IMG/VR virus record: IMGVR_UViG_3300031521_000077
Coordinates: 1-56,977 of that record
DNA: 56,977 nt
Strand: one strand, 5' to 3'
Origin: a virus
Shown here in pieces: positions 9,109 through 50,537 of this stretch. The notes beneath the pieces were generated by a model. It did no database searches. It had not been told where the DNA came from and saw nothing but the letters and a program-made list of their open reading frames with translations. Position 1 is the first letter of the stretch, and every line of letters begins with the position of its first letter. Both the position numbers and the translations under genes were made by a program.

Positions 9109-9182
9109 TGCGGGGTGGTCTGGAGTGATTCCAGCTCTGGCTCATAACCAGAATGACGGAGGTTTGAATCCTCCTCCCGCTA
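9109..9182 (+). tRNA. tRNA with CAT anticodon (Met, initiator-like, or Ile2)
   Basis: The acceptor stem pairs 9110-9115 with 9075+100 to 9180 (six pairs, one G-T), while the first position is an unpaired T-T, as in initiator tRNAs that have a 1-72 mismatch. The anticodon arm is TCTGG-CTCATAA-CCAGA with CAT at 9143-9145. The T arm is GGAGG-TTTGAAT-CCTCC. The D arm is atypical; CTGG/CCAG pair only when shifted by two positions. The length of 74 nt without CCA equals that of E. coli initiator tRNA. The 3' CCA is not encoded. Only two G-C pairs close the anticodon stem instead of the three typical of initiators, so elongator Met or lysidine-modified Ile remain possible. Confidence 0.75.
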
Positions 9183-30321: not shown

Positions 30322-30963
30322 ATGAAATTAAAACTAAGCAAAATAAATGAAATAATTGATGGGAACGGTGAATTGATTGGAGCAGATGATATGCCATCAA
30401 GCGGTTCTGATTTAGATACAGCTGCCAATAATACTACAGACTACAATGCAAGCATTTCACATCAGCCATACCGTTATAGCACATTAGCTATGATGGGTAT
30501 GAGCATGCCGTTTTACGAAAGTAAAGATAATATCGGAAGCATTGAATCTCCAATTTTAAAGGACATTGCTAAGTTATTGTATGATAACTACATGAGCACA
30601 TTAAAGCATTACTATCAAAACCCAAATAAGCTAAAATCTGATTACAGAGTCAAATCCGAAGAAACATTTGATACTCAATCTGAACATGGAATGCAGATTA
30701 ATATGGATTTGGCTAATGAAATATTGAAAAAAATTGAACCATATTTCGAAAAAGATAAAGCAAAGAATATTGATGAATCTGTAGTTCCTGTCGTTGAAGA
30801 TAAGATGGTTAATAAAAGTGAAGACGAAATTTCGGTGAAGGGGGATGATAATGGTATTAAGGATAAAAAACTGATTAAAATTGCTGGTCTTATAAATAAA
30901 ATGTCACAAACCGATATCAATAAAATCGTTAATCTTTTAGAAAAAAATAATGGCAAACAGTAG
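30322..30963 (+). CDS. Unknown, possibly virion-associated protein
   Basis: This 213-residue protein opens with basic KLKLSKINEIIDGNGELIG, then a polar linker and a helical central part. The C-terminal half is charged and coiled-coil-like, with runs of K, E and D. It overlaps the next gene by 14 bp and shares its GTATTTATA promoter. No family is recognised and no catalytic motif is visible. Confidence 0.65.
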   Translation: MKLKLSKINEIIDGNGELIGADDMPSSGSDLDTAANNTTDYNASISHQPYRYSTLAMMGMSMPFYESKDNIGSIESPILKDIAKLLYDNYMSTLKHYYQNPNKLKSDYRVKSEETFDTQSEHGMQINMDLANEILKKIEPYFEKDKAKNIDESVVPVVEDKMVNKSEDEISVKGDDNGIKDKKLIKIAGLINKMSQTDINKIVNLLEKNNGKQ

Positions 30964-31720
30964 TTTAATTGATAAGCAATATAGAATCCCGCCAGATATA
31001 CTAAAAAGTATTAACGTGGCTCTTGTATCACATCCACATGGAAATGGCGTTAAAAGGGCCAAATTCATGCTAGGAAATGGCATGCTAACGTATCAGGCAA
31101 TGAAACGTATTAAACACGACCTAGAGAATACTCCACCTAATACACCTGATTATATTTTAGCTGGTGGAGAACTAATGTTAACATTCATTAATAGAATGTT
31201 AAATACTGACCGTACCGGAGTTGAAATGGAGAAACATGCCAAACAAGACGTTACAAATAATGTCATGATGGGTACTGAAAATTCAGGTTTAAGACCCGGA
31301 TTAAATGAAGTAAAAAAAAAGGAGCCAATTGATAATGCAATTGCAATAATTGTTAATGGTGACAATAAGGTACTTTTATTAAAAAGAGCTGTTAATGATG
31401 CATGGGGAAGTGGTAAATGGGCATTAGTTGGTGGAGGTGTTGAGAAAAAAGACAAAAGTATTGAAGATGCCTGTCGCAGAGAAGTAAAAGAAGAAACTGG
31501 ATTAGTTTTGGGTGATTTTATAAAACGTTATTCAATACAAAGACATAAAGATAGCGTGGAACATATGTTTGTCACTAAATACGATGGTGATGGTATGAAC
31601 ATAAAATTAAATGATGAAAATAGTGCATACGGGTGGTTTAGTATTGAAGAAATTAAGTTTTTAGATACTGTGCCATTATTAATAGAATACTTAAAACTTG
31701 CATTTAAAAGTTATGACTAA
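30950..31720 (+). CDS. Nudix hydrolase with an N-terminal extension
   Basis: This 256-residue protein has a C-terminal Nudix domain. The Nudix box is present as GGGVEKKDKSIEDACRREV followed by KEETGLV; the REVKEETG part (from Arg177) is intact, while the first Glu of the G-x5-E box is displaced by one inserted residue or replaced by Lys. The N-terminal 125 residues (YRIPPDILKSINVALVSHPH) form a separate domain of unknown role. Such enzymes hydrolyse nucleoside-diphosphate-linked metabolites; in phages the usual targets are dNTP damage products, NAD-type signals or mRNA caps. The substrate is not visible. It overlaps the preceding gene by 14 bp. Confidence 0.82.
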   Translation: MANSSLIDKQYRIPPDILKSINVALVSHPHGNGVKRAKFMLGNGMLTYQAMKRIKHDLENTPPNTPDYILAGGELMLTFINRMLNTDRTGVEMEKHAKQDVTNNVMMGTENSGLRPGLNEVKKKEPIDNAIAIIVNGDNKVLLLKRAVNDAWGSGKWALVGGGVEKKDKSIEDACRREVKEETGLVLGDFIKRYSIQRHKDSVEHMFVTKYDGDGMNIKLNDENSAYGWFSIEEIKFLDTVPLLIEYLKLAFKSYD

Positions 31721-33777: not shown

Positions 33778-36700
33778 ATGACATATAACGAATTCTTATT
33801 GGTATTGGAGAGATTTAAGACGCTTCCATCATTTGCACAAAAAATTAAATATATTAGTGAAACACTAACCAGAATTGGTTCTGGTAGCGGAAGAATTGTT
33901 TATGATATTGATGGCACTAAAGTATTTAAAGTAGCGAAAAACACTAAAGGCATTGCGCAAAATGAGGTTGAAATTAGTGTTGCATCATATTACGATAGTA
34001 ATAATATCGTTGCAGATGTAATAGAATCTGATGAAGAAAATAGCACTTGGATTGTTGCAGAAAAAGGAAAAAAAGTAAATGAAAGAAGAATTTGCCAATT
34101 AACAGGGATACCAAGCCTAAATGATTTTTATCACTATATTACAAATCAAATAGATGCTAATAATGGTCGTAAGGGACGTTTTAGCATGAACCCAGAGTTA
34201 AAAGAAGCATTGCAAGAAAACGAATGGGTTATTAATATGATTGATTTTATTATTGGCTATGGACAATCTGTTGGCGATTTAGATAGACCAAGTACATATG
34301 GTGAAGTATTACGTGATGGTGGGCCGATTATTGTTTTGGTTGATTATGGTTTAAGTGATGAAGTATATGCCACTCACTATTCAAGAGATAGAATGCATGA
34401 AATTTTTAATAATAGTGATGGAAATGACGACATATTATCTAATATTGGGGGTATTGATGCCGAAATAAAAGGCATGGCATCTATACAGCCATTTGATGTT
34501 AATGATGGTGAAAACACAATTAACATGGAAGAAAGCATTTCATTCATTGAAGGAAGAAATAAATATCCTAAAACTGAAATAAGAAACATAGGTGAACTTG
34601 CAGATAAATTTCATGATTGTGTTAATAATTTAGACCATGCAATAGCAAAATCTAAAGATAAGAATATTTTCTATGAAAATTTGCTTAAACTTGAAGAATA
34701 TTTAACAGAACAAGGTCATTATAATAGAGAACCGCTACCCAAAGTTTTAAATGAAAAAATTGATTTAAATATGACCAATAATGTGGCAAGTGCTGTCGCA
34801 CAAAAATATGGTTTTCAACAATTACAACATTTAGGCGGTAATGGTTATGGTCAAGCATATGATATTGGTAATAACCAAGTGCTTAAAGTTACTACGGACA
34901 GAAGTGAAGCACTTGAAAATGCCGACCTTATAGGAAAACAATTTAACTATATTGCCGACCCATATGCTGTTTATGAAGTTGTTTCAAAAACAACCAGAAC
35001 AAAACTATGGGTTATTATACTCGAAAAGTTAAGAACTGATGATGAATATTTTGATAAAATGTTCAGAAGATTAACCACCGCAATGAAATTCATATTTAAT
35101 GGTACTATATACAACAGCTTTTCCGAAGTATTGAATGAAATGTCATACGGATATTTGAATCCATATGAAAATGAAAACTTCAAAAAATATATGGCTAATA
35201 ATAAAGAAGATTCAGCTTTCTTCGATAATATGGCTAAAATCGTTGAAGAGTGTAATAAATTTGGTATTGAAAGCCACGATTACTTAAATTCGAGAAACTT
35301 AGGATTTAAGCCTAATGGCGCTATTGGATTTTTTGACCTTGGAGGTTCTGATTTAAACACTAGTGATAAAGACCCTGAATTATTTCGCATGAAAGAAAAT
35401 GCACAATCTGATGAATATCCTACGTATAATCAAGGTGATTTAGGCTACGATACTGAAAATAGCATACTTAAAGAAGAGTTTTTAGGTGCTATTGGTACTA
35501 ATCAGGATGGAAGCTCTATTGATTGTTATAGAAATCCACCAAGCATAAGACAATTTAAGCCATTCATAAGAGGTCTCATTGATGGAAGAAATGGCGATTT
35601 ATATGTTGCGGATGCAACATTCTTTATGCATGTTTCAATAGCACAATGGCTTAAGATTGAACATATTGTCGATTTTCCAACACACTATCGTGATTATTAT
35701 GATGGTAGCGGAAGGGTTCTTCCGGTTCAGCGCAATAAAAATACGAATGATTTTTATTTGGGAGAAATCTATCATCCAGAAGAAATTGAAAGAGATTTGC
35801 TAATGATTAAAAGAGTTTTTGCAATGGCAAAACAGAAAAATCCTAGTCAAAACTTTATTCCTAAAAATATTGAAGAAGCACCAAAAATTCCTAGCATAAA
35901 TGAAAGAATAATGTCTTCAATGGAAGGCAGCACAAGCGTTGAGGTAAAAGATAAGTGTAGACTTGGTGGTGGAGCAACATGTAATGTTGGTGATATGAAT
36001 AACTTCAATATTAAACCAATACATGAGCAAATTGATGCAAGTGAAGCATACGATGGTGTAGGTACAATACAGACAGTTATTGACGGTAAACGAAATGTTG
36101 GATTAATTGCAACATTTAATAAACCTAATTTATTGAACATGATTAAAACTGGTGGTTTAAATACAATACCTGTTGAACAAGCGCATCACAATGCTGCCAC
36201 ATATATTATTTATAATAATAATGGCAAAAACGATGCCTTAAAACTTCATGAATACATGAAATCTAAGGATGGTTATGTTAGTGATGAAACCCCGGAAGAA
36301 GCTCGATATATTGGCAAATTATTAGGATATACACCTAATAGCGTAGAGCAATATGTTAATAGGCGTTATGGTCAAGAGCAACAAAATACTCCGCCACAAT
36401 TACAGCCAAATATGCAGTTAGATGAAGATAATATTAATGAATATGCTGGAATAGTTACACCTGATTTAAAACTAATTAAGGGCGAAAATCATAATAAAAT
36501 TTTAGGAAAATTATTTCCCGAAATTGATGGATATTCAGATAGATATGACCATGCATATAACAATGGCTATGTTAGGGTTATTGTTCATGAAGGTATTGTT
36601 GATGGTGAACCATATAATTACTATAATATCGAAGGATTTTTAGCTCCAATTAAAGAAGTAATAAATAGGCTATATTTGCGAGATATGCTGAAAACACGTA

Positions 36701-37515
36701 GTGATATTTATATTGATGATATCGATACGGCTACTAGTTATACTTTCAAAACTCCAAAAGAAAATTTACAATTAAATAAATTTATTGGTGGTATTAATGA
36801 AAATAATATTACATTTGCAGATTCAAATGAAAATTCAAACACTGTAAATGAAACTGAAATGGTAAACGAAAACGAAATAATGTCACTTAATGACCTACCC
36901 TTCAAGCAAGAAATTGAAGGGCTTGGAGCTAAAATTTATAGTGTTGGTGGTGCTGTACGTGATGAATTTTTAGGTAAAGAATCTAAAGACCTAGATATTT
37001 TAATCACAGGCATACCTATGGATAACTTAGAACAACTATTATCTAAATATGGAAGAGTTGATGCAGTTGGTAAATCTTTTGGTGTTATTAAATTCAAGCC
37101 TAAAGGTTCAACCGAAGATATTGATATAGCTATTCCTAGAACAGAAGTCCCAACTGGTGCTGGTGGGCATAAAGGATTTGATGTTAAATCTGACCATACA
37201 TTACCAATCGAAGATGATTTGAAACGTAGAGACCTGACTATTAATGCAATAGCTAAAGACTCCGAAGGCAACATAATTGACCCTTTTGGTGGTGTTGAGG
37301 ATTTAAAGAATAAGATTATTCGTGCTGTAGACCCTAATGCATTCAATGACGACCCTCTTAGAATGTTGAGAGCCGTACAATTTTCTGCACGTTTTGGTTT
37401 CACGATTGAGCCAAATACAATGGAAATGATTAAGCAAACTGCCGATAAAGTGAAAACAATATCCCCGGAGCGAGTTATAATTGAGTTTGAAAAAATTGTA
37501 AAATATAATAAATGA
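33778..37515 (+). CDS. Giant polyprotein: two kinase-like domains plus head of CCA-adding tRNA nucleotidyltransferase (5' part of a split gene)
   Basis: 1245 residues from ATG 33778. Domain 1 (about 25-200) is protein-kinase-like: Gly loop IGSGSGRIVYDI, Lys51 in VFKVAK and VDYGL (Asp189) in the place of DFG. Domain 2 (345-525) repeats it: LGGNGYGQAYDI, VLKVTTD and FFDLGG (Asp520). A further domain at about 565-705 (GLIDGRNGDLYVADATFF ending AKQKNPSQNF) recurs in the gene at 38570. The C-terminal 200 residues are a class II CCA/poly(A) polymerase head: YSVGGAVRDEFLG, Asp1071 and Asp1073 in KDLDILI, DDLKRRDLTINAIA, DPFGG and DDPLRMLRAVQFSARFGF. The protein stops after SPERVIIEFEKI, where the helical neck should follow. 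The neck is in the gene at 38570. Function: probably RNA end processing or tRNA repair. Confidence 0.82.
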   Translation: MTYNEFLLVLERFKTLPSFAQKIKYISETLTRIGSGSGRIVYDIDGTKVFKVAKNTKGIAQNEVEISVASYYDSNNIVADVIESDEENSTWIVAEKGKKVNERRICQLTGIPSLNDFYHYITNQIDANNGRKGRFSMNPELKEALQENEWVINMIDFIIGYGQSVGDLDRPSTYGEVLRDGGPIIVLVDYGLSDEVYATHYSRDRMHEIFNNSDGNDDILSNIGGIDAEIKGMASIQPFDVNDGENTINMEESISFIEGRNKYPKTEIRNIGELADKFHDCVNNLDHAIAKSKDKNIFYENLLKLEEYLTEQGHYNREPLPKVLNEKIDLNMTNNVASAVAQKYGFQQLQHLGGNGYGQAYDIGNNQVLKVTTDRSEALENADLIGKQFNYIADPYAVYEVVSKTTRTKLWVIILEKLRTDDEYFDKMFRRLTTAMKFIFNGTIYNSFSEVLNEMSYGYLNPYENENFKKYMANNKEDSAFFDNMAKIVEECNKFGIESHDYLNSRNLGFKPNGAIGFFDLGGSDLNTSDKDPELFRMKENAQSDEYPTYNQGDLGYDTENSILKEEFLGAIGTNQDGSSIDCYRNPPSIRQFKPFIRGLIDGRNGDLYVADATFFMHVSIAQWLKIEHIVDFPTHYRDYYDGSGRVLPVQRNKNTNDFYLGEIYHPEEIERDLLMIKRVFAMAKQKNPSQNFIPKNIEEAPKIPSINERIMSSMEGSTSVEVKDKCRLGGGATCNVGDMNNFNIKPIHEQIDASEAYDGVGTIQTVIDGKRNVGLIATFNKPNLLNMIKTGGLNTIPVEQAHHNAATYIIYNNNGKNDALKLHEYMKSKDGYVSDETPEEARYIGKLLGYTPNSVEQYVNRRYGQEQQNTPPQLQPNMQLDEDNINEYAGIVTPDLKLIKGENHNKILGKLFPEIDGYSDRYDHAYNNGYVRVIVHEGIVDGEPYNYYNIEGFLAPIKEVINRLYLRDMLKTRSDIYIDDIDTATSYTFKTPKENLQLNKFIGGINENNITFADSNENSNTVNETEMVNENEIMSLNDLPFKQEIEGLGAKIYSVGGAVRDEFLGKESKDLDILITGIPMDNLEQLLSKYGRVDAVGKSFGVIKFKPKGSTEDIDIAIPRTEVPTGAGGHKGFDVKSDHTLPIEDDLKRRDLTINAIAKDSEGNIIDPFGGVEDLKNKIIRAVDPNAFNDDPLRMLRAVQFSARFGFTIEPNTMEMIKQTADKVKTISPERVIIEFEKIVKYNK

Positions 37516-38573
37516 TGAAACATAAAAATTGGAAAAATAAGGAAAACTGTGTTATTGATGCATTAAATTATGCTAACAAATCAGAATGGATTAAATGTTC
37601 TGGTGCATCATATCAATCTGCTCTTAAGAATGGTTGGATTTCTGATTGTTGTGGACATATGAAAAGACCACAAAATTGGAATAAAAAATGGATAAAAGAA
37701 ACTTGTACCATTGAAGCCAAAAAATATAATACAAGAACAATTTTTCAAAAACAATCGTCAGGGGCATATTGTGCAGCTTATGACAATAATTGGATAGATG
37801 AAATTTGTTCACACATGACAAAAACTGGTAATAATAAAAATAGATGTATTTATTCTTATGAGTTTTCAGATAATTCAGTTTATATTGGACTAACATATTC
37901 TTTAGAAAAAAGACAAATAAATAGAAATAATGATATTAATGATGCTGTAACTAAGCATATTTCTAATACAGGTTTAATACCAATTAGAAAACAGTTAACT
38001 GAATATATCTCAGTTGATAGTGCATCAAAACAAGAATCAGCTTTTATTCAACAATATAAAGTCAATGGTTGGAACATACTAAATAGAAATAGTGGTGGTG
38101 GGATTGGTGGAAATTATGTTTTGTGGACGCTTGAAACTTGCAAAGAAGAGGCATTAAAATATAATTATAGAGGTGAGTTTAAAAAAAAATCAAAAAGTGC
38201 ATATGTTGCTTCATTAAAAAATGAATGGCTAAATATTATTTGTGAACATATGCAATATAAATACACTTTATGGACTTTTGAGAAATGTAAAGTAGAGGCA
38301 TTGAAATATAATACGAAACATCAATTTCGTGAAAATTCAAAAAGTGCATGCCAAATAGCTTATCGTAATAAATGGATATTTGACATTTGTCAACATATGA
38401 CAGTAAAAAAGAAACCAAATGGTTATTGGTCAAAAGAAAAATGTTTATTAGATGCGAAAAAATATGATACAGTGCGTGAATTTAGAAAAAAATCAAATAG
38501 TGCATATGTTACAATAATTAATAATGGATGGATAAGTGAAATTGAATTCCTAAAAAAATATGAAAGAATATGA
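37512..38573 (+). CDS. GIY-YIG homing endonuclease with five DNA-binding repeats, inserted in a split gene
   Basis: 353 residues. The GIY-YIG core is YSYEFSDNSVYIGLT (residues 114-128) followed by EKRQINRN. Two repeats lie before and three after it, of the form WxxExCxxxAxKYxTRxxFxKxSxSAYxxAxxNxWIxxICxHM. Each repeat should be a small helical DNA-reading unit. The gene overlaps the 5' and 3' halves of the host gene by ATGA at both ends (37512-37515 and 38570-38573), so all three reading frames are translationally coupled. No flanking non-coding sequence remains that could be a group I intron. This looks like a free-standing homing gene that has broken its target gene at the CCA-nucleotidyltransferase neck, similar in principle to mobE splitting nrdA in phage Aeh1. 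Confidence 0.85.
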   Translation: MMKHKNWKNKENCVIDALNYANKSEWIKCSGASYQSALKNGWISDCCGHMKRPQNWNKKWIKETCTIEAKKYNTRTIFQKQSSGAYCAAYDNNWIDEICSHMTKTGNNKNRCIYSYEFSDNSVYIGLTYSLEKRQINRNNDINDAVTKHISNTGLIPIRKQLTEYISVDSASKQESAFIQQYKVNGWNILNRNSGGGIGGNYVLWTLETCKEEALKYNYRGEFKKKSKSAYVASLKNEWLNIICEHMQYKYTLWTFEKCKVEALKYNTKHQFRENSKSACQIAYRNKWIFDICQHMTVKKKPNGYWSKEKCLLDAKKYDTVREFRKKSNSAYVTIINNGWISEIEFLKKYERI

Positions 38574-40126
38574 AAAATATAGCATTAACTGCCGTTGAAT
38601 TACTTGTTGAAACTGGATTATTTGCAGCAATATTTGGAAAAAATATAAAACCATCACAGATTGACCGTAGGGATTTTCCTAATGTTAAAACAATGGGTGA
38701 ATTTATTTTCTTAATGACTTATGGAGTTATCGAAAACCCTGCTGAATTCTTCTTAAAAAACCTTAAGGGTAATGTCGATTCATATAAAGAGATTAAGGCA
38801 CTTGAATTGGCTTATAATGCCGATTTAAACAATGAGGACATGCCAATTGTTGCTGCTAGGGCAATTGCACATAATATATACTTAATATCGCCACAAGCCT
38901 TAAAAAGCACTATATTACCACAAGCAATTATTAATGGTGCTCAGGATTTACTTTCTGGTAAATATCCTAAGACTGTTAATGAATTAGCATTGAATGGAAA
39001 TGATTTAATGACAATGGGATTGAAGGGCAAAGAAATTGGTGATGTGCAAAAAACATTATTACTTAAAGTCTATGCTGATAAGGTTAGAAATGATAAGGCA
39101 GAATTAACAGCACAATTTCCCAAAGCGAATGTTCAGGATGAAGGTGTTGGCGATAAATATGCAGAAAAAAGATTTAACATTAAGCCAGAGTTTCATGATT
39201 TTGAACAACAATACAGGAATAAGCAAAGTGAGGAAGCAAAAGATGAAGTAGTATACAATGGTGGTAATGATGGATTAGTTATAATAAAAAACCCTAAAAC
39301 ATTATCTAACATTGGATATGATGCACGTGGTGTTATTGATAGAGAAGGAAATCTATATATTGAACAAGAATCGTCAGGACACGTACATGAATATATCTTA
39401 AAAAAATTGGCTGAATTAGGATTAATCACATATAATCGTGATTGGACTACAACATTGCCAGTTAATTTTATTACTGTAATGAGGTATGAAGACGATAATT
39501 TAATTTTACTAGGTGAATCAAATGAAATGATGACACCCCAAGCAGAAAAAGAAATCGATTCATATTATAGCGATGGTTATTGGGAAGATTTTCCTACAAT
39601 AGAAGAAGCCACACCAGTGTTTCAACAATTTCTAGATAAAGCAAAACAAAAGAATCCAAACATTAATTTTATGAACGAAAACATTGTTTATTATGAAGAT
39701 AATGATAACAAATACATTAAAGAAGATATTAATACTATGAGCAAAGTATTATATAGTGCAGTGGTGCTTGATGATAAATCAAGGGAATCGTTATTAGCAT
39801 ATTTAAACCGAAAACATCTGATACCAGAGGGCTGGGAAATTGTCGCACATCACATGACAATTAATCTAGGTGAAATTGACCCAGAATTTGAGAAATATCT
39901 AGGCATGAACGTTAGATTAAATACTGAGGATTATGCGATTGATGATAAAGTAATGGCTGTTGGCGTTTCTGGGTTTGGAAGTAAAAATACTAAACCTCAC
40001 ATAACAATAGCAGTTAATAGAGAAAACGGTGGTAAACCAATGATGTCCAATAACTTAAGAAATTGGGAGAAAATAAGACCAATAATGTTAGTTGGAAAAG
40101 TTACAGAAGTAATGCCAAAGTTTTAA
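38570..40126 (+). CDS. 3' part of the split polyprotein: CCA-nucleotidyltransferase neck plus 2H phosphoesterase
   Basis: 518 residues. The first 60 residues (LTAVELLVETGLFAAIFG) continue the helical neck of the tRNA nucleotidyltransferase that ends at 37515. A long helical region follows to about 200. At about 230-365 is a second copy of the domain found in the upstream gene (NIGYDARGVIDREGNLYIEQ, ending AKQKNPNINF). The C-terminal 130 residues are a 2H phosphoesterase (LigT-like): HMT (His428, Thr430) in AHHMTINLG and HIT (His477, Thr479) in KPHITIAV. Such enzymes open 2',3'-cyclic phosphates at broken RNA ends. The ATG overlaps the GIY-YIG stop. Whether the halves associate to form an active enzyme is not known. 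Confidence 0.8.
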   Translation: MKNIALTAVELLVETGLFAAIFGKNIKPSQIDRRDFPNVKTMGEFIFLMTYGVIENPAEFFLKNLKGNVDSYKEIKALELAYNADLNNEDMPIVAARAIAHNIYLISPQALKSTILPQAIINGAQDLLSGKYPKTVNELALNGNDLMTMGLKGKEIGDVQKTLLLKVYADKVRNDKAELTAQFPKANVQDEGVGDKYAEKRFNIKPEFHDFEQQYRNKQSEEAKDEVVYNGGNDGLVIIKNPKTLSNIGYDARGVIDREGNLYIEQESSGHVHEYILKKLAELGLITYNRDWTTTLPVNFITVMRYEDDNLILLGESNEMMTPQAEKEIDSYYSDGYWEDFPTIEEATPVFQQFLDKAKQKNPNINFMNENIVYYEDNDNKYIKEDINTMSKVLYSAVVLDDKSRESLLAYLNRKHLIPEGWEIVAHHMTINLGEIDPEFEKYLGMNVRLNTEDYAIDDKVMAVGVSGFGSKNTKPHITIAVNRENGGKPMMSNNLRNWEKIRPIMLVGKVTEVMPKF

Positions 40127-40143
40127 TATTATTATCAAAAGTA

Positions 40144-40175
40144 TTTGGGTGTTAGTATAATTTAGTTTATATTTG
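40144..40175 (+). promoter_or_regulatory. Host-type (Bacteroidota) promoter
   Basis: TTTG at 40144-40147 and TATATTTG at 40168-40175 are separated by 20 nt, a near-perfect match. It lies 17 nt before the ATG at 40193. Confidence 0.75.
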
Positions 40176-40192
40176 CACCCAAATACTTTTAT

Positions 40193-40729
40193 ATGGGTAG
40201 TGATAAGGAAAATGCGTGGGAATCATCCCTTGAAGTTGGTAAGGAATTTGAAACGTTAATAATTGAGGATATTAGGAATAAAAGGTATCCATTAGCACAC
40301 GAAAATAATAGTAGTGACTATTCTGTGCTTAAATTATATGATGTTATAATTCCAGAAATTAATCGAGAGATTGAATTAAAGAATGACATTGAATCAAAAA
40401 ATAGCGGGAATATTTGTATAGAGGTTGGGTGCAACGGTAATAAATCTGGATTGCTTGTAACAAAAGCAAAATATTGGATACATGGTGATGGAAATTATCA
40501 TTACTTAATGTTAACTAACAATATAAAAAAATTGATTAAAGAACTTTACCTAGACAAGTACCCTGACCATGAAAGCTATGTAGTAAAAAAAGTAACTAAA
40601 TATCCAGTAAAACAAAAGGATAATAATGTTAAATACATGGATTTTTATTTAATACGAAAAGATGTTTTTGCGGCATATTCATTAGAATTTAAAGATGCTG
40701 GAATGTTAACCTATGAAAAATTAATATAA
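40193..40729 (+). CDS. Probable PD-(D/E)XK-superfamily nuclease-like protein
   Basis: 178 residues. After an N-terminal helix (EVGKEFETLIIEDIRN) there is KLYDVIIPEINREIELKND, where Asp and the E-x-K triad (EIELK) have the spacing of a PD-(D/E)XK nuclease core, followed by strand NICIEVGCNG and a helix. This suggests a resolvase or restriction-like endonuclease, but the fold is too divergent to be certain. It has its own host-type promoter and its stop overlaps the start of the HAD gene, so the two are coexpressed early. Confidence 0.55.
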   Translation: MGSDKENAWESSLEVGKEFETLIIEDIRNKRYPLAHENNSSDYSVLKLYDVIIPEINREIELKNDIESKNSGNICIEVGCNGNKSGLLVTKAKYWIHGDGNYHYLMLTNNIKKLIKELYLDKYPDHESYVVKKVTKYPVKQKDNNVKYMDFYLIRKDVFAAYSLEFKDAGMLTYEKLI

Positions 40730-41337
40730 TGAAAGAAACTGAAAAAATAAAAAGGCTTTATGTCTTCGACTTAGATGGTACTCTTATGAATTCACCTATG
40801 CCAGATGAAGGTAAACTTCTATGGAAAGAAAAGAAGGGCGTTGACTATCCACATTTAGGCTGGTGGGGCAGAGCAGAGAGTTTAGACATTGAAGTATTTA
40901 ACATTATGCCAATAGCTAGAATTGAAGCCATTTTTAGAAGTCAAATTGACTGTGAGGATACCTATTGTGCTATCATGACCTCTAGGATGGAAAAATTACG
41001 CCCACAGGTTGAAAAGGTTTTAATTAAAACCGGATTAATTGTCGATGAACTCATTATGAAGAGAAGTGCAAAAAGTAAGGGTGAAAAACTCTTACGTTTA
41101 GCTAAGAAGTTCCTAAATTTGGAACTTATCTGTGTATTCGATGATAGAGATACTGATATTGCATCGTATCTTAATCATAGTGAACACATCGAAGAATTTT
41201 CTGAATTCATGATAATTCATTTCAAAGAAGATAAGCTAGTCCATGTTGAAACCAAGAAACAAAGCTTTAATAGAATTTTTGATAATGTTATTAAGAAAAT
41301 TATGTGGGAGAAGTATGGATTTTATGGCAATATTTAA
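40729..41337 (+). CDS. HAD phosphatase of the Swiss-Army-Knife RNA-repair type
   Basis: 202 residues. Motif I is YVFDLDGTLMNSPMPDEG, with Asp14 and Asp16, followed by LLWKEKK and HLGWWG. The 'TP-x-P...LW...GWW' sequence after the HAD motif is the signature I know from the HAD_SAK_1 family, found in Swiss-Army-Knife RNA-repair proteins. Motif II is MTSRMEKLRPQ, and motif IV is VFDDRDTDI (Asp pair). Likely function: 3'-phosphate (or 2'-phosphate) removal at RNA ends. It is coupled by a one-base overlap to the gene before it and lies 0.6 kb after the 2H phosphoesterase, supporting a joint RNA-repair pathway. Confidence 0.78.
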   Translation: MKETEKIKRLYVFDLDGTLMNSPMPDEGKLLWKEKKGVDYPHLGWWGRAESLDIEVFNIMPIARIEAIFRSQIDCEDTYCAIMTSRMEKLRPQVEKVLIKTGLIVDELIMKRSAKSKGEKLLRLAKKFLNLELICVFDDRDTDIASYLNHSEHIEEFSEFMIIHFKEDKLVHVETKKQSFNRIFDNVIKKIMWEKYGFYGNI

Positions 41338-41367: not shown

Positions 41368-42198
41368 ATGATAAGAATGGGATTACGTCCACCACATCTT
41401 CCACAAATTTCGATGCCTATTCATGAAATATTGAGTAAGTTAGATGAAGAAGGAATTGAATATGAAGTATTAGAACAAGACCCAAATGAACTAAATCCCT
41501 CACAGGGCATAACATTTTCAGATGAAGTGCATGAACCTAATGAGGAAAAATTTACTTGGAGTGATAAAGATAATAATGTTTTGGATGGACACCATAATCT
41601 CGTATATCACATTATTAAGTCAGCACCAATAAAATGCATTAAAATAAATCTTGATGATAAGACTGCTTGCAGGGTGTTAAATAAAATTCAAGACATATTT
41701 GAATACGAAACCCAACGAAAAATGGAGGAAGTTCTTGGTCAAGATGCAATCAATACCCAAAATGATATTGATGCTGGTAATAACCAAGGTGATTTCTTAG
41801 ATTTACTCGAAAAGGACAATAGTGATATTGAAGCCGAAACTGAATCAGATTCTATGAATCCCAAGCTTGTTATTGGTTATAGAAAAGAGCCAATAATTGA
41901 AAACTCCGTTATTGGAAATTTTTTCACGCTTAAGCCAATCGATGGTTATAATAAATATGAAATTGAATGTGATAATCTTTTAGATACAAATGATTTAGGA
42001 ATTGGCTATAAAAGTGGTCAAATTCCTGTCGATGTGCTATCAAAAACTTGGTTTCCACATGTTAATTTTGAAAAATTGAGCGAAAAATATAATATGCCAG
42101 CAATAAACCTAAAAAATAAAGCTGTTGCGCATAAAGCCAAGAAACATGGATATGATGCAATTAAATATGGCGATACATTAATTCAAGGACTTAAATAA
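41368..42198 (+). CDS. Unknown protein with ParB-like and possible ART-like segments
   Basis: 276 residues. The N-terminal half includes FTWSDKDNNVLDGHHNLVYHI followed by IKCIKINLDD, similar to the 'DGHHR...' strand-helix of ParB/Srx-like domains. The middle is acidic. The C-terminal segment AVAHKAKKHGYDAIKYGDTL resembles the last strand of ADP-ribosyltransferase-like and similar phage domains ('GYDGI.yg'). Neither match is strong. It opens a two-gene unit with its own GTATTTATA promoter. Confidence 0.5.
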   Translation: MIRMGLRPPHLPQISMPIHEILSKLDEEGIEYEVLEQDPNELNPSQGITFSDEVHEPNEEKFTWSDKDNNVLDGHHNLVYHIIKSAPIKCIKINLDDKTACRVLNKIQDIFEYETQRKMEEVLGQDAINTQNDIDAGNNQGDFLDLLEKDNSDIEAETESDSMNPKLVIGYRKEPIIENSVIGNFFTLKPIDGYNKYEIECDNLLDTNDLGIGYKSGQIPVDVLSKTWFPHVNFEKLSEKYNMPAINLKNKAVAHKAKKHGYDAIKYGDTLIQGLK

Positions 42199-42690: not shown

Positions 42691-45147
42691 ATGAAGGAAA
42701 AGATTAGAATATTATTTTACAACATAGACGGAGCAGGTGTTAACTATTTTCGTACATTAACCCCAGCAATGGAAATCGAAAGAAACCATTCAGATGATTT
42801 CTTTGTTGAAATTAACCCTAAATTGGATTTTAATAGTCCAGACACAATAGAATATTTAAAAACCTTTAATATTATTCATTACCATCGTCAATTAGTTGAT
42901 GATAGTGTGAAAATGGTTGCTATTGCAAATGAACTTAAGGCTGCTGGGGTTATTTTAATTATGGACATTGATGACTATTGGAATCTTCATAAAAAGCATC
43001 CACTCTATGATATGAACATGGAGAATAATTCCTCAGCTAAAATTGTGAATAACTTAAAGATTGCTGACTACTGTACAACAACAACAGATATATTTGCAAA
43101 TGAAATCAATAAAATAACGAAGAGAAATAATACTCAGGTTTTGTTGAATTCTATCGACCCAATTTGGATGAAACAATTTCAAAATAATTGGAAACCAGAC
43201 CCAGATGGTCGTATTAGAATTACATATATGGCTGGTTCGTGTTATGACAATAAAACAGAAATTTTTACTGAAAATGGATGGAAGTTCTTTAAGGACTTAG
43301 AGAAGGATGAAAAGGTTGCAACATTAAATTCTGTCACGAATTTGCTCGAATATCAACAACCAACTGAATATATTAACGAACTGTACTCAGGTGATATGTA
43401 TTATGGCAAAAATTCATTAATCGATTTTGCCGTAACCCCGAATCATAATATGTATGCACATAAATCGAAATCGCTAAATAGAAAAAAACCATTTAATTTT
43501 GAATTAAATAAAATGGAAAATTTGGTTAATTACGACCTAACATTTAAAAAGAATTGTGATTGGATTGGCAATGATGATGAATACATTATAATACCTAAGC
43601 ATCTAACAACTAAGCAACATACAGATAAGTGTGGAGAAATTAAAATAAAAATGGATGATTGGCTTAAGTTTTTTGGGTTTTGGATGGGAGATGGTTGGAC
43701 AACAAATGGTGAATGTAATCAGGTGGGAGTTTGTGGTTATAAAAAAATTGGTATTGATACAATGAAAGAAATTAAAGGAATTTTTGATAACTACGGTATA
43801 AGTTCAACATATAGTGGTGAAAATACATTAAGGTTTTTCAATACTCCCCTATATAATTATCTACATCAATTTGGTGGTGCTAATGAAAAGCACATACCCA
43901 AATCTATTCTTAATTTAAATAAAAATAAATTAGAAATATTTTTGGAATATTATTTAAGAGCAGATGGACACATTAGAAAAAATGGTAGAAAGACAGCATA
44001 CACATCATCCGAATCATTAGCAAATAATTTAAATGAATTAGCACTAAAAATTGGGTTAGCTGCTACAATTACTAATCGTGGCATTAGAAATAATAATACT
44101 GTTCTAAAAAATGGTAGAACTATTAAAGCTAATTATGATTCACATGCAATTAATTTCTATTTATCCTCAAAGAAAAATAATTTAATGCCTACTATGTCTC
44201 ATGATAATATCATGATTGAAAAATATGAAGGAAATATATTTTGTGTAACTGTCCCAAATCATATATTATATGTAAGAAGAAACGAAAAATCATATTGGTG
44301 TGGTAATAGCCACGAAGCCGATTTTCAGCAATTGAATGGTACTATGAATCTTCTTATTAGCGACCCTGAACTTACTGATAAGTTTAAAGTTATTATTGCT
44401 GGCTGGGACACCGAAGGTGATACAGCTGACGTTACCTTTAATCAGGAGTTTGGAAAACTCTTAGAAAAAAAGGGCATGTGGAACATGAAAACAGTTAAAA
44501 TTATCAACAAAACCAGAGGTAATGTTGATATGATTCCCGGATTGAGTGATGAAATTAAAAATCAATATAGGGGCAAAGTATTTGATTTAAGTCATAGGAG
44601 TATTAATTCAACAGAATCTACCTATTATAGGTATGAGAAAATATTGACAGATAATTACAGGTTAATTAAAAATCAGGATTATCTTCAATGGTTAATGAAT
44701 TTTGAAAGAAACATTAAATACCCAAATGAAGGCAATTTTGGAAGACGTTGGACTGAAAAGGCAAATGCGTATGCTAAGGTTTTGGATGAAAGTGACATTG
44801 TAATCGCACCACTTGAAAACAATGTATTTAACACAATGAAGTCTAACCTCAAACAGGTTGAATGTTGGACTAGAAACCTTCCTATTGTTTGTTCTGATAT
44901 GCCACCATATAATGTTGATGGAAAAAATATGGAGAATTGTATCTTGATTCCAACAAAAAAGAACTGTGACAGGGATTGGGCAAAAGCATTAAAAAAATTA
45001 ATTCTTGATGCTGATTTGCGTAAAAAACTAGGGGAACAATTACATGAGGATTTCAAACTTAAATATAATTTAGCTGATGTAACAAAAACACGTGTTGAAT
45101 TTTATCAAGGTATTATGAAAAAATCATTAGAAGCAGCCAACCAATAA
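42691..45147 (+). CDS. GT4-type glycosyltransferase interrupted by a LAGLIDADG intein
   Basis: 818 residues. The exteins (residues 1-183 and 540-818) form a GT-B glycosyltransferase: FYNIDGAGVNYFRTLTPAME at the start, IMDIDDYWNLH, then after the intein KVIIAGWDTEG, IVIAPLENNVFNTMKSNLKQVE and LPIVCSDMPPYNVDG, the GT4-like donor site. The intein starts at Cys184 after TYMAGS and ends with Asn539 before Ser540 (SHEADFQQL). Removing it would yield a 462-residue protein. The target may be virion protein, teichoic-like or host glycans, or DNA bases; the donor is not visible. A terminator and GTATTTATA-like motif lie upstream. Confidence 0.88.
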   Translation: MKEKIRILFYNIDGAGVNYFRTLTPAMEIERNHSDDFFVEINPKLDFNSPDTIEYLKTFNIIHYHRQLVDDSVKMVAIANELKAAGVILIMDIDDYWNLHKKHPLYDMNMENNSSAKIVNNLKIADYCTTTTDIFANEINKITKRNNTQVLLNSIDPIWMKQFQNNWKPDPDGRIRITYMAGSCYDNKTEIFTENGWKFFKDLEKDEKVATLNSVTNLLEYQQPTEYINELYSGDMYYGKNSLIDFAVTPNHNMYAHKSKSLNRKKPFNFELNKMENLVNYDLTFKKNCDWIGNDDEYIIIPKHLTTKQHTDKCGEIKIKMDDWLKFFGFWMGDGWTTNGECNQVGVCGYKKIGIDTMKEIKGIFDNYGISSTYSGENTLRFFNTPLYNYLHQFGGANEKHIPKSILNLNKNKLEIFLEYYLRADGHIRKNGRKTAYTSSESLANNLNELALKIGLAATITNRGIRNNNTVLKNGRTIKANYDSHAINFYLSSKKNNLMPTMSHDNIMIEKYEGNIFCVTVPNHILYVRRNEKSYWCGNSHEADFQQLNGTMNLLISDPELTDKFKVIIAGWDTEGDTADVTFNQEFGKLLEKKGMWNMKTVKIINKTRGNVDMIPGLSDEIKNQYRGKVFDLSHRSINSTESTYYRYEKILTDNYRLIKNQDYLQWLMNFERNIKYPNEGNFGRRWTEKANAYAKVLDESDIVIAPLENNVFNTMKSNLKQVECWTRNLPIVCSDMPPYNVDGKNMENCILIPTKKNCDRDWAKALKKLILDADLRKKLGEQLHEDFKLKYNLADVTKTRVEFYQGIMKKSLEAANQ
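43240..44307 (+). other. Intein with LAGLIDADG homing endonuclease (356 aa)
   Basis: The intein runs from Cys184 (codon 43240-43242) to Asn539 (44305-44307). Block A is CYDNKTEIFTENGW, block B is FAVTPNHNMYAH with T-x-N-H, and the C-terminal blocks are NIFCVTVPNHILYVRR and SYWCGN, with +1 Ser. The penultimate residue is Gly instead of the usual His. The homing endonuclease carries two dodecapeptide motifs: FGFWMGDGW and LEYYLRADGH, so it looks intact. Confidence 0.92.
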
Positions 45148-45237: not shown

Positions 45238-46551
45238 ATGGAAAAAACCATAACATATATTGAAAAAGCAAATCATGTTCATAAAAATAAGTATGACTAT
45301 TCCCAACTTAAATACATTAATTATGATATTAAGGTGAGAATAATTTGTAACGTTCATGGTGAATTTCTTCAATTACCTAGCTCACATTTAATGGGATTTG
45401 GGTGTCCTAAATGTGGGTCGGAAAATAGTAAAATTAAAAGGTGCTTGGGAAAAGAAACTTTTTGCAAAAGAGCAAACATATTATATGAAAATAAATACGA
45501 TTACTCGTTAGTTGAATATCTATCTGAAAAAAAGACAATAAAAATAATTTGTCCAAAGCATGGTGAATTTACAACTACACCGCAACGACATCTTCTCAGA
45601 AAAACAGAATGCCCAATTTGTTCGGGTCATAAAAAGAATAATGAAATGATAATTAATGAATTTAAAATGAAACATGGTGTGGAATATGACTATTCATTAG
45701 TTAATTATATTAATAATCAAAAAAAAGTAAAAATAATATGTCAAGTACATGGAGAATTCGAACAAACCCCTGCAAACCATCTATCTGGTACTAAATGCCC
45801 TATTTGTTCTACAACAAAACGAGCTGAGAATAGAAAATATGATAAGAACATTTTTATAAATAAAGCAAGCATTAAACATGGTAATAAGTACGATTATTCG
45901 TCATCTGATTATATCAGTAGCAAAACTAAAATAAAAATAATTTGTCCAATACATGGGGAATTTGAACAAATAGCTGCCAATCATTTAAATGGACAGGGAT
46001 GTATAAAATGTGGAACTTTGTCAGCTTCAACCATCAAATCAAAAACAAATGATTTGTTTATATTAACAGCAAATTTAAAACACCAAAGTTCGTATGATTA
46101 TTCACTGACCAATTATTCTCATTCTCAAAAGAAAGTAAAAATAATTTGTCCAATTCATGGTGCTTTTGAACAAATAGCTGCCAATCATTTAATGGGGGCT
46201 AAATGCCCTAAATGTTCAGAATCGAAAGGTGAAATTGAAATAAGAAGATTGCTAGAAAATAATAAAATTAATTTTATCTCACAAAAAACATTTGAAAAAT
46301 GCGTAGGCAAAATAAAAAAATTGCCATTTGATTTTTATTTGCCAGATGAAAACATATTAATTGAATATAATGGAATGCAACATTATATGGAAATAAAATA
46401 TTTTGGCGGTAAAATAACATTTGAACGAATAAAAAAATGTGATGCAATAAAAAGAGAATTTGCTAAAAAAAACAACATAAAATTAATTGAAATAAAATAT
46501 AATACAAAAAATATTAGGGAGATACTAATAAATGAAAACATTATTAAATAA
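45238..46551 (+). CDS. Large Vsr-like homing endonuclease with five zinc-ribbon repeats
   Basis: 437 residues. Five repeats of about 65 residues each carry KYDYSLVEY, then VKIICPxHGEFEQ, NHLxGxxCPxC, so each has a C/H and a CxxC pair that could bind zinc. They cover residues 1-330. The C-terminal nuclease follows SESKGEIEI: KLPFDFYLPDENILIEYNG and MQHY provide the Asp, Glu and His of the Vsr/EDxHD fold. It is a paralogue of the gene at 49281. It has its own GTATTTATA motif and its 3' end overlaps the next gene by 20 bp. The repeats should read a long DNA target in a modular way. Confidence 0.85.
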   Translation: MEKTITYIEKANHVHKNKYDYSQLKYINYDIKVRIICNVHGEFLQLPSSHLMGFGCPKCGSENSKIKRCLGKETFCKRANILYENKYDYSLVEYLSEKKTIKIICPKHGEFTTTPQRHLLRKTECPICSGHKKNNEMIINEFKMKHGVEYDYSLVNYINNQKKVKIICQVHGEFEQTPANHLSGTKCPICSTTKRAENRKYDKNIFINKASIKHGNKYDYSSSDYISSKTKIKIICPIHGEFEQIAANHLNGQGCIKCGTLSASTIKSKTNDLFILTANLKHQSSYDYSLTNYSHSQKKVKIICPIHGAFEQIAANHLMGAKCPKCSESKGEIEIRRLLENNKINFISQKTFEKCVGKIKKLPFDFYLPDENILIEYNGMQHYMEIKYFGGKITFERIKKCDAIKREFAKKNNIKLIEIKYNTKNIREILINENIIK

Positions 46552-48870: not shown

Positions 48871-49269
48871 ATGAAGTCATATAATATAAAGTATCCTATT
48901 AGGGATAACGTTGAAACAAATACATTGTTTCAGATGTCACAAATAACCAAAGATGCATTTAGTTCTGATTTGCTATTATTGTTATTGACTCAAAAGGGAG
49001 AAAGATACTACGAACCAGATTATGGCACTGACTTACTTAAATTCATTTTTGAGCCGAATGATGGTGTTACTGCCGGGGATATTGAAGGAGAAATAAAGAA
49101 TACCGTATCATTATATATTCCAAGTCTAACAATTAATAATGTGATATTTAATTGGGATACTGATGATAATGGCGAAAAGATTGAAGAAAATCAATTATCT
49201 GTGATGATTAATTTCACATATAGTGAAGATGTATTTACCGAACAAGGAACGATAACAATAAATTTTTAA
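48871..49269 (+). CDS. 25: gp25-like baseplate wedge protein
   Basis: 132 residues, matching T4 gp25 (132 aa) in length. The pattern SSDLLLLLLTQKGERYYEPDYG followed by DLLKFIFEPND is the core of the GPW/gp25 family, which forms the baseplate sheath-polymerisation initiator. DIEGEIKNTVSLYIPSLTINNVIF closes the fold. It opens the baseplate operon directly after a GTATTTATA motif. An endonuclease gene now lies between it and gp6. Confidence 0.88.
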   Translation: MKSYNIKYPIRDNVETNTLFQMSQITKDAFSSDLLLLLLTQKGERYYEPDYGTDLLKFIFEPNDGVTAGDIEGEIKNTVSLYIPSLTINNVIFNWDTDDNGEKIEENQLSVMINFTYSEDVFTEQGTITINF

Positions 49270-49280
49270 AATATTATATA

Positions 49281-50537
49281 ATGGCAGAACGTAAAACAGT
49301 TGAAAAATTCATATTAGATGCGAAAAGAACGCATGGCGATAAGTATGATTATTCATTGGTTGAATATGCCAATAGTGCCACCAAAATTATAATTATTTGT
49401 CCTGTGCATGGAAAATTCGAACAGATGCCATACAAACATTTAGAGGGCAAGGCTTGTCCTAAATGTGCTGGGCAAAATAAAACAACAGAGGAATTTATAG
49501 ATGAGGCAAATAATATACATAAAGGAATATATAATTATTCAGTAAGCGATTATAAAAAGGCGCATATTAAAATAAAAATTATTTGTAATTCACATGGCAT
49601 TTTTACACAAAAACCAAGCAATCATTTACTAGGGCAAGGCTGTCCCAAATGTGGGGGTAAAAATAAAACCACTGAAGAGTTTATTGATGAAGCTAAATTA
49701 CTTCATGGTGATAAATATGATTATTCTTTAGCTGATTATAAAAAAAGTAAGTCTAGAATAAAAATCATTTGTTCCATACATGGCGTTTTTGAACAAAATC
49801 CCAATAATCATTTAAGTGGTGCTGGTTGTCCTAAGTGCGATAATAAAAATAAAACAACAGATGAGTTTATTTGTGGAGCAAAGGAGATACATGAAAATAA
49901 ATATGATTATTCATTAGTCGAATATAAAAAAAGTAAGTCTAGAGTAAAAATTATTTGTCCAGTTCACGGTATATTCGAACAAAAACCCAATAATCATTTA
50001 TATGGTGAAGGGTGTCCTAAGTGTGATGGTAAAAATAAAACAACAGATGAGTTTATTTGTGGAGCAAATGAGATACATGAAAATAGGTACGATTATTCAT
50101 TAACAGATTATTTTCGTTGTAAGTCTAAAGTAAAAATCATTTGTCCAGTTCATGGTATATTTGAACAAACGCCAAGCGACCATTTGAGTGGTTATGGATG
50201 TAAATTTTGTAGTGAATCGAAAGGGGAAATGAAAATTGTAAAATACTTAAATGAAAATGAAATTAATTATGTAAGGGAAAAAACATTTAGTGGTTGTAGA
50301 AATAAACTTCCCCTACACTTCGATTTTTATTTGCCAGAAAAAAAAATATTAATTGAATATGATGGTCAACAACATTTTATTCCAGTAAAGTATTTTGGTG
50401 GAGAAAAAAATTTTAAAATTGGACAGATGAATGATGAAATTAAAAATAATTTTGCAAAAAATAATAATATTATTCTATTGAGAATAAATTATCTTGATGC
50501 AAAAAATATAAATCAAATATTAAAGGAGGTAATATAA
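49281..50537 (+). CDS. Second large Vsr-like homing endonuclease with five zinc-ribbon repeats
   Basis: 418 residues. Five repeats of about 62 residues share KYDYSLVEYKKSKSR, IICPVHGIFEQ, NHLSGxGCPKC and the linker NKTTDEFI. The C-terminal nuclease has LHFDFYLPEKKILIEYDG, QQHF and NNFAKNNNIILLRIN, as in the Vsr/EDxHD group. It is a paralogue of the gene at 45238 and carries very recent internal duplication (39-bp exact repeats). It is inserted between gp25 and gp6; its stop shares one base with the gp6 start and its last codons contain the only strong Shine-Dalgarno sequence noticed in the window. Confidence 0.85.
   Translation: MAERKTVEKFILDAKRTHGDKYDYSLVEYANSATKIIIICPVHGKFEQMPYKHLEGKACPKCAGQNKTTEEFIDEANNIHKGIYNYSVSDYKKAHIKIKIICNSHGIFTQKPSNHLLGQGCPKCGGKNKTTEEFIDEAKLLHGDKYDYSLADYKKSKSRIKIICSIHGVFEQNPNNHLSGAGCPKCDNKNKTTDEFICGAKEIHENKYDYSLVEYKKSKSRVKIICPVHGIFEQKPNNHLYGEGCPKCDGKNKTTDEFICGANEIHENRYDYSLTDYFRCKSKVKIICPVHGIFEQTPSDHLSGYGCKFCSESKGEMKIVKYLNENEINYVREKTFSGCRNKLPLHFDFYLPEKKILIEYDGQQHFIPVKYFGGEKNFKIGQMNDEIKNNFAKNNNIILLRINYLDAKNINQILKEVI
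49844..50068 (+). repeat. Direct repeats within the endonuclease gene
   Basis: A 39-nt segment is exactly repeated at 49844-49882 and 50030-50068, an offset of 186 nt (62 codons) equal to one protein repeat. Surrounding repeat units are also alike, indicating recent unit duplication. Confidence 0.85.
50525..50529 (+). promoter_or_regulatory. Strong Shine-Dalgarno GGAGG before gp6
   Basis: AAAGGAGGT is inside the last codons of the endonuclease, with 7 nt between GGAGG and the gp6 ATG at 50537. Other starts in the window lack such a sequence. Confidence 0.55.

Follow-up and report, generated by a model that had tools for sequence, protein, structure and literature searches.

RNA repair by bacteriophages is usually framed as the sealing of anticodon-loop cuts by a kinase and a ligase. 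CCA-adding enzymes, 2H domains, Swiss-Army-Knife (SAK) HAD proteins, end-healing enzymes and RNA ligases are already known in jumbo phages (PMC7824862), and Klebsiella phage RaK2 has been credited with a CCA-adding enzyme, a polynucleotide kinase and a ligase (PMC3622015). The 2H domains of the large phage proteins termed polyvalent proteins have been described as not associated with RNA ligases (PMC5512222), and phage enzymes that function although split, as well as UAAUGA-coupled starts, have been documented (PMC2988022). In this article, a 57-kb phage genome fragment of 56,977 nucleotides (IMG/VR record IMGVR_UViG_3300031521_000077, hereafter the window) is analysed between positions 33778 and 41337, where five main + strand open reading frames (ORFs) form an island encoding a CCA-adding enzyme, a 2H domain and a SAK-type HAD protein. 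The fragment comes from a lineage of large (jumbo) phages, and the module is shared by many related giant phages. With a probability of about 0.62, it serves to heal and rebuild the 3' ends of tRNAs in that lineage.

The first ORF of the island (33778-37515; its start ATG is codon 14 of the listed TTG ORF) ends with the head and neck of a CCA-adding enzyme, which match the PolyA_pol and PolyA_pol_RNAbd families, and the closest solved structures to the head are the CCA-adding enzymes 6ibp (Table 1) and 1miv (3e-29). Four motifs are recognisable, GGAVRD at 36946, KDLDI at 36985, RRD at 37225 and DDPLR at 37348; in homologous heads GG..RD and RRD are kept throughout (62/62), while DD replaces ED in 52 of 58. 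By its GGxxRD, RRD and [E/D]DxxR motifs, the head belongs to a class II CCA-adding enzyme. The PF12627 match ends early, at position 37 of a 64-position model; the missing remainder, a match to tRNA_NucTran2_2 (PF13735), lies at residues 47-180 of the 38570-40126 ORF. The gene is therefore cut at the neck/body boundary, with one piece ending the first ORF and the other starting the third, and when they are aligned with the single-chain relatives L001, L002 and L003, the two pieces meet end to end and every conserved residue is retained. The model of the body and tail has a predicted local distance difference test score (pLDDT) above 90 over most of residues 11-180, and the tail matches the Bacillus stearothermophilus enzyme 1miv in Foldseek with a probability of 1.00. 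A separate 2H protein at 38570 is ruled out, as the ORF opens with the CCA body and tail according to Pfam, alignment and Foldseek. The head-neck-body-tail order found elsewhere in a single chain is thus distributed over two ORFs, a split derivative of the class II family. Of the 60 non-redundant loci described below, 57 carry a contiguous enzyme; the exceptions are the window, L062 with a frame break and L056 with no head detected; L077, a close relative of L062, has an intact gene.

The ORF between the two pieces (37512-38573) is a member of phrog_20046, with multi-copy homologues, at 76 places in 26 records, among phages of Vibrio, Rhizobium and Burkholderia, a distribution consistent with mobility. 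Homologues match the GIY-YIG family PF01541 at 7.5e-5 and 1e-4; the window ORF itself has no Pfam match, and its YSY...YIGLT motif, together with downstream E and N positions, aligns with the PF01541-matching homologues and supplies the GIY-YIG motif. The protein contains repeated DNA-binding-like modules, the gene has a G+C content of 27% against 32% in its neighbours, and it overlaps each neighbour through an ATGA start/stop, resembling the UAAUGA arrangement of T4 mobE (PMC2988022). The intervening GIY-YIG gene, the uninterrupted relatives and the ATGA overlaps together indicate a gene in pieces: the CCA gene, the central one of the set, is divided by a selfish GIY-YIG homing-endonuclease gene whose homing activity is predicted from its sequence. 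A group I intron or intein was rejected as the cause of the split, given that the overlaps leave no room for a ribozyme, that three frames are involved and that Rfam revealed no intron. A target-site duplication was likewise not used, as the short A/T-rich flanking match is uninformative in AT-rich DNA and collapsing it would break the frame. A search for close relatives of the endonuclease on viral contigs confirmed none. Because both halves are open, motifs are kept and phage enzymes split in this way are known to work (PMC2988022), the enzyme is predicted, by analogy, to function as two chains, the multidomain protein with head and neck and a body-tail-2H protein, which would reassemble.

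The 2H domain lies at the C-terminus of the 38570-40126 ORF. Its AlphaFold model reaches block means of 85-98 over residues 391-518, and its best Foldseek matches in the PDB are the catalytic domains of mouse CNPase (E 3.4e-4, probability 1.00); a PDB sequence search with the 2H profile gave no match at the limits used. The window domain has the two HxT motifs, HHMT (39848) and PHIT (39995); two HxT/S motifs are kept in 74 of 77 homologues, and PF08302, the fungal tRNA ligase CPD, is matched by 36 of the 43 members of the family alignment. The domain is, by fold and motifs, of the CNPase/fungal-tRNA-ligase-CPD type, with a predicted 2',3'-cyclic phosphodiesterase activity. As for the HAD protein, 47 of 48 family members match HAD_SAK_1 (PF10307; best 3e-13) and residues D14 and D16 are invariant, so that a catalytic DxD motif and the HAD_SAK_1 profile are both present at the family level; the window protein also matches phrog_415, a polynucleotide kinase/phosphatase family. 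The HAD profile gave no match in a PDB sequence search at the limits used. In a different phage group (L104-L118 and L129), a SAK HAD follows a region of approximately 450 amino acids without Pfam match.

The 33778-37515 protein consists of two N-terminal kinase-like domains, a variable middle and the C-terminal CCA head and neck. Foldseek matches both domains to APH(2'')-Ia and to protein kinases (E ~1e-4, probability 0.97-1.00), and they resemble the reduced kinases described for polyvalent proteins, some of them from Bacteroidetes phages (PMC5512222). This protein-kinase/APH-type fold rules them out as polynucleotide kinases, and no P-loop kinase domain of the 5'-OH polynucleotide kinase type was found in the island, which therefore contains no recognised enzyme for 5'-OH ends. 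In translations inspected by eye, ART-like, GNAT-like and other domains are exchanged within the large multidomain protein of L001 and L003, as in polyvalent proteins.

Much of this composition had been anticipated by an earlier model-made reading of the island (the original prediction). The two kinase-like domains, the 2H phosphoesterase with two HxT motifs and the SAK HAD that it named were all confirmed, including the two points on which it had staked itself, the 2H fold of the C-terminal domain of the 38570 ORF (AlphaFold, Foldseek, PF08302) and the SAK relationship of the HAD protein. Its class II CCA-adding enzyme was right in identity, but the interruption of the gene was missed and the endonuclease-like ORF between the two pieces went unmentioned. 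The PD-(D/E)XK-like protein that it listed, whose gene neighbours the set in many relatives, though not in all, can be retained tentatively, on a D...ExK pattern conserved in three homologues and with no Pfam match. Two further statements, that no RNA ligase is visible in the window and that the phage has a tRNA lacking encoded CCA, proved correct and are considered below.

Relatives were found by searching with the neighbouring gene at 41368-42198, which yielded 80 loci on contigs of up to 365 kb. Merging of near-identical CCA tails gave 61 clusters, or 60 non-redundant loci without the window's own fragment, the counts being approximate because the clustering used a simple string-similarity ratio. 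The widely kept order is kinase-like/multidomain protein, CCA-adding enzyme, 2H, (PD-(D/E)XK), HAD and neighbour. Fusion of the 2H domain to the CCA-adding enzyme occurs in 29 loci; in another 15 the two are direct neighbours, in 14 they lie no more than 2.5 kb apart, one locus has 2H farther away and one lacks it. For the SAK HAD, the corresponding numbers are 2 loci with a fusion, 48 with a distance of up to 3 kb and 3 with a greater one, and in 7, some of them at locus ends, no HAD was seen. Recurrence of the gene set in about 60 non-redundant loci exceeds chance. Two phages encode single-chain 2H-CCA-HAD fusions (L102, 717 amino acids; L208, 1035 amino acids), a 320,934-bp contig (L103) carries the three genes in the different order 2H, CCA, HAD, and in L130 a divergent CCA gene stands beside a SAK HAD. 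Domain identities, the gene split, conservation and fusions are established by these observations.

Cousin phages of another group (L218-L231, perhaps two lineages, many being near-identical) encode a two-part protein, the N-terminal half being a P-loop domain that matches AAA_33 (1.5e-9) and has polynucleotide-kinase-like motifs, and the C-terminal half belonging to the same 2H family; an Rnl1-type RNA ligase (PF09511, 4.8e-15) is encoded approximately 1-2 kb downstream. This arrangement links the 2H family with the healing of RNA ends and contrasts with the polyvalent-protein 2H domains surveyed previously (PMC5512222). Immediately upstream of the fusion, L220, L229 and L231 also encode a homologue of kinase-like domain 1; the kinase-like gene, seen in these three, the fusion and the ligase make up a compact healing-and-sealing set.

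No RNA ligase was found in the 57-kb window; one of the ligase searches there had no positive control of its own, and the same model does match in relatives. Among 15 long related contigs, 11 encode an Rnl2-like (PF09414) and/or Rnl1-like (PF09511) ATP-grasp ligase above the family cut-off, while RtcB exceeded the cut-off in none and gave one sub-threshold match. In several relatives the Rnl1-type ligases sit within tRNA arrays, far from the island. Two of the 15 encode T4-type kinase-phosphatase proteins. One relative, G007, combines CCA, 2H, HAD, kinase-phosphatase, Rnl1, Rnl2 and KptA matches with 49 tRNA hits, and six long relatives have 19-53 tRNA hits each. Encoded CCA is missing in 198 of 206 tRNA genes in the arrays of the relatives and the window, the window tRNA-Met at 9109-9182 included, so that a CCA-adding enzyme, of host or phage, is required to use them. 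The arrays of L150-L158 contain near-complete tRNA sets, tRNAs with CUA anticodons (possible amber suppressors) and one tmRNA.

From this gene set we infer the activities, the order of steps and the biological trigger as follows. After cleavage by a metal-independent RNase, the tRNA 3' end would carry a 2',3'-cyclic phosphate, which the CNPase-type 2H domain would open; the phosphate that remains would then be taken off by the SAK-type HAD phosphatase, and the CCA-adding enzyme would rebuild CCA on the freed 3'-OH, with no ligase required. The same CCA-adding enzyme may also complete the CCA-less tRNAs of the phage, and where a strand has to be rejoined, an RNA ligase encoded elsewhere in the phage genome could act on the healed end. 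Since most loci belong to one lineage, a functional argument from gene order alone is weak, and it is the fusions, the altered order and the cousins with polynucleotide-kinase-like and ligase partners that carry the argument. A bolder form of the reading, which we offer tentatively and hold less probable than its opposite, is an undescribed ligase-free phage device, most compact as one 2H-CCA-HAD chain and present here in a split-CCA version, that reverses acceptor-end damage and thereby counters toxins or host defences directed at tRNA 3' ends.

Several points weigh against tRNA 3'-end healing and rebuilding. CNPase-type 2H enzymes leave a 2'-phosphate, and its removal by a SAK HAD is not established; KptA, which is able to remove it, was matched in only one of the 15 long relatives. 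As most of the 60 loci are of one lineage, the shared order is partly a matter of common descent. The window HAD alone falls below the Pfam cut-off (E 0.005), the HAD frame contains stop codons in two relatives (L043:9012 and L044:5053, TAA and TGA), where it may be dispensable or decaying or the victim of an assembly error, and no HAD was seen in L069, L070, L072 and L073 despite available downstream sequence. Lastly, the window being a 57-kb fragment, the ligase, polynucleotide kinase and tRNA set of this phage itself are out of view.

Other explanations have to be set beside this one; the repair models among them are not mutually exclusive, so the confidences need not sum to one. The 3' ends of precursor tRNAs made by host nucleases normally carry no cyclic phosphates. 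The 2H and HAD proteins would therefore be superfluous if the island were housekeeping only, with the CCA-adding enzyme finishing phage tRNAs, 2H and HAD trimming precursors and neither repair nor counter-defence involved; moreover, this 2H family has a polynucleotide-kinase-like domain and an RNA ligase as its partners in other phages. We consider this improbable, even though the prevalence of CCA-less tRNA genes and arrays of up to 53 tRNA hits agree with it and maturation was proposed by the RaK2 authors for their phage CCA enzyme (PMC3622015). Classical repair after anticodon-nuclease attack, in which the island would heal anticodon-loop cuts and a phage RNA ligase would seal them, was the interpretation offered by the original prediction. 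Its general part, RNA or tRNA repair, is the best supported reading, and the ligase absent from the window is encoded by relatives; anticodon-nuclease damage specifically did not find support. The 2H and HAD proteins do represent healing activities, and the ligases in 11 of 15 long relatives and the combination of matches in G007 also speak for this explanation. On the other side, the ligases are distant from the island, the island has no polynucleotide kinase, and a ligase neighbour is seen for the 2H family only, not for the CCA set. Of the activities originally proposed for end healing, the kinase has to be dropped owing to its protein-kinase/APH fold, and CCA addition, which is no part of mending a cut anticodon, fits 3'-end damage or phage tRNA maturation at least as well. 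Anticodon repair through distant ligases is not the most direct reading of the gene set and is judged less likely than not.

A role of the 2H domain as an Acb1-like anti-defence cyclic-nucleotide phosphodiesterase, its link to the CCA-adding enzyme being incidental, is very unlikely. Two members of the family match Acb1 (PF23474), a weak Foldseek match to phage Acb1 was obtained (E 7e-3), and nucleotide degradation or RNase roles have been argued for the 2H domains of polyvalent proteins (PMC5512222), but the best matches are CNPase and the fungal tRNA-ligase CPD, the best match among viral models is a giant-virus protein named RNA ligase, and the domain is repeatedly fused to CCA, HAD and polynucleotide-kinase-like domains. 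It is also unlikely, though less so, that the split has left the CCA gene a decaying pseudogene and the module of the window phage incomplete. A single insertion with pieces in different frames would fit decay, and no near relative sharing this split turned up for a test of selection; against this, the two pieces lie in frames of 1245 and 518 codons without stops, catalytic motifs are intact in both, no conserved residue is lost at the junction, and the start/stop overlaps permit coupled translation. Healing and rebuilding of tRNA 3' ends accordingly remains the reading that we prefer.

The features of the island are collected in Table 1.

Table 1. Coordinates of the genes and domains of the island in the window and the evidence for each.
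Feature	Position	Strand	Evidence
Multidomain polyvalent-like protein	33778..37515	+	PolyA_pol PF01743 1.2e-24; PolyA_pol_RNAbd PF12627 1.4e-8; PDB 6ibp 6e-30; kinase fold by Foldseek
Kinase-like domain 1 (phrog_4301; conserved K, GD, DYG)	33838..34380, limits approximate	+	phrog match 3e-10, alignments, structure
Kinase-like domain 2 (conserved K, SxDY..N, FDxGG)	34798..35400, limits approximate	+	Alignments, structure
CCA-adding enzyme head + neck	36901..37512	+	Pfam, alignment, PDB matches
Free-standing putative GIY-YIG homing-endonuclease gene inside the CCA gene	37512..38573	+	phrog_20046 2.4e-65, homologues, alignment
CCA-adding enzyme body + tail, second piece	38570..39115	+	PF13735 1.4e-4, alignment, AlphaFold/Foldseek
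Variable linker, low-confidence model	39116..39730	+	pLDDT mostly <60; largely missing from L002
Predicted 2H phosphodiesterase domain (HHMT, PHIT), same chain as CCA tail	39731..40126	+	PF08302, CNPase fold, motifs
PD-(D/E)XK-like protein	40193..40729	+	phrog_13596 9.1e-10, alignment, neighbourhood
Swiss-Army-Knife HAD, predicted phosphatase (DLDGTL, SPMP, GWW, TSR, DDRDTD)	40729..41337	+	PF10307 in family; phrog_415 3.5e-7
Conserved neighbour gene (DGHH motif; ParB-like by eye)	41368..42198	+	Alignment; marker for finding relatives, 80 loci

A gp25 baseplate gene lies downstream at 48871-49269 (8.6e-11), so the island adjoins late virion genes, as is often the case for polyvalent proteins (PMC5512222), and packaging of the multidomain protein in the virion is conceivable. 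In L002 (10240-10608) and L046 (8856-9227), a small response-regulator-like gene stands between the HAD and DGHH genes and recalls, by resemblance, the cRec proteins linked to RNA repair (PMC7824862). Upstream of the island, a NUDIX hydrolase gene occupies 30950-31720 of the window (PF00293, 2.7e-20). A LAGLIDADG-type intein is located at 43240-44307 within the glycosyltransferase gene 42691-45147 (PF14528, 2.8e-9), with Cys first, Asn last and Ser next; it is missing from three relatives, and the host gene is an unusual one for an intein. Two treble-clef/HNH homing-endonuclease-like ORFs (45238-46551 and 49281-50537) flank the gp25 stretch, making the region rich in mobile genes. One related locus, L243, lies on a contig binned as a Bacteroidota metagenome-assembled genome, a hint about the host at most.

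In the literature searched, which did not cover a key review (doi 10.1093/nar/gkw722) and so leaves room for a prior account, no description was found of a conserved CCA-2H-HAD unit, of the triple fusion or of a CCA gene split by a homing-endonuclease gene. A conserved and sometimes single-chain unit of this kind points to a second, ligase-free kind of phage RNA repair, acting at the tRNA acceptor end, and predicts that hosts have defences targeting tRNA 3' ends. The single-chain fusion permits a clean in-vitro test with one protein and one substrate, and the split version offers a natural test of CCA-adding enzyme function in two chains.

Among known systems, the E. coli-type multifunctional Cca is a CCA-adding enzyme with an HD domain. 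The phage module resembles it in joining CCA addition with phosphodiesterase and phosphatase activities (predicted for the phage) in one polypeptide and differs in having 2H and HAD domains where the E. coli type has HD. With the fungal Trl1 CPD and vertebrate CNPase it shares the 2H fold and HxT motifs, to which L218-L231 add a fusion with a polynucleotide-kinase-like P-loop domain; the partner of 2H here, however, is a CCA-adding enzyme rather than a polynucleotide kinase or ligase. The split gene parallels Aeh1 nrdA/mobE and the T4 topoisomerase gene with mobA (PMC2988022), in which a free-standing endonuclease likewise splits an enzyme gene with overlapping stop and start codons, whereas the present case involves a GIY-YIG type in a CCA-adding enzyme gene. 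Like polyvalent proteins (PMC5512222), the window protein is a large multidomain phage protein combining kinase-like and effector domains near virion genes; unlike them, it carries part of a CCA-adding enzyme, and its cousins place the 2H family beside an RNA ligase, which that survey had not seen. Finally, T4 RNA repair (Pnkp and Rnl1) and the jumbo-phage sets have phage-encoded end-healing enzymes in common with this locus, whereas here the CCA-adding enzyme, 2H and HAD form a conserved and often fused unit with no polynucleotide kinase or ligase adjacent.

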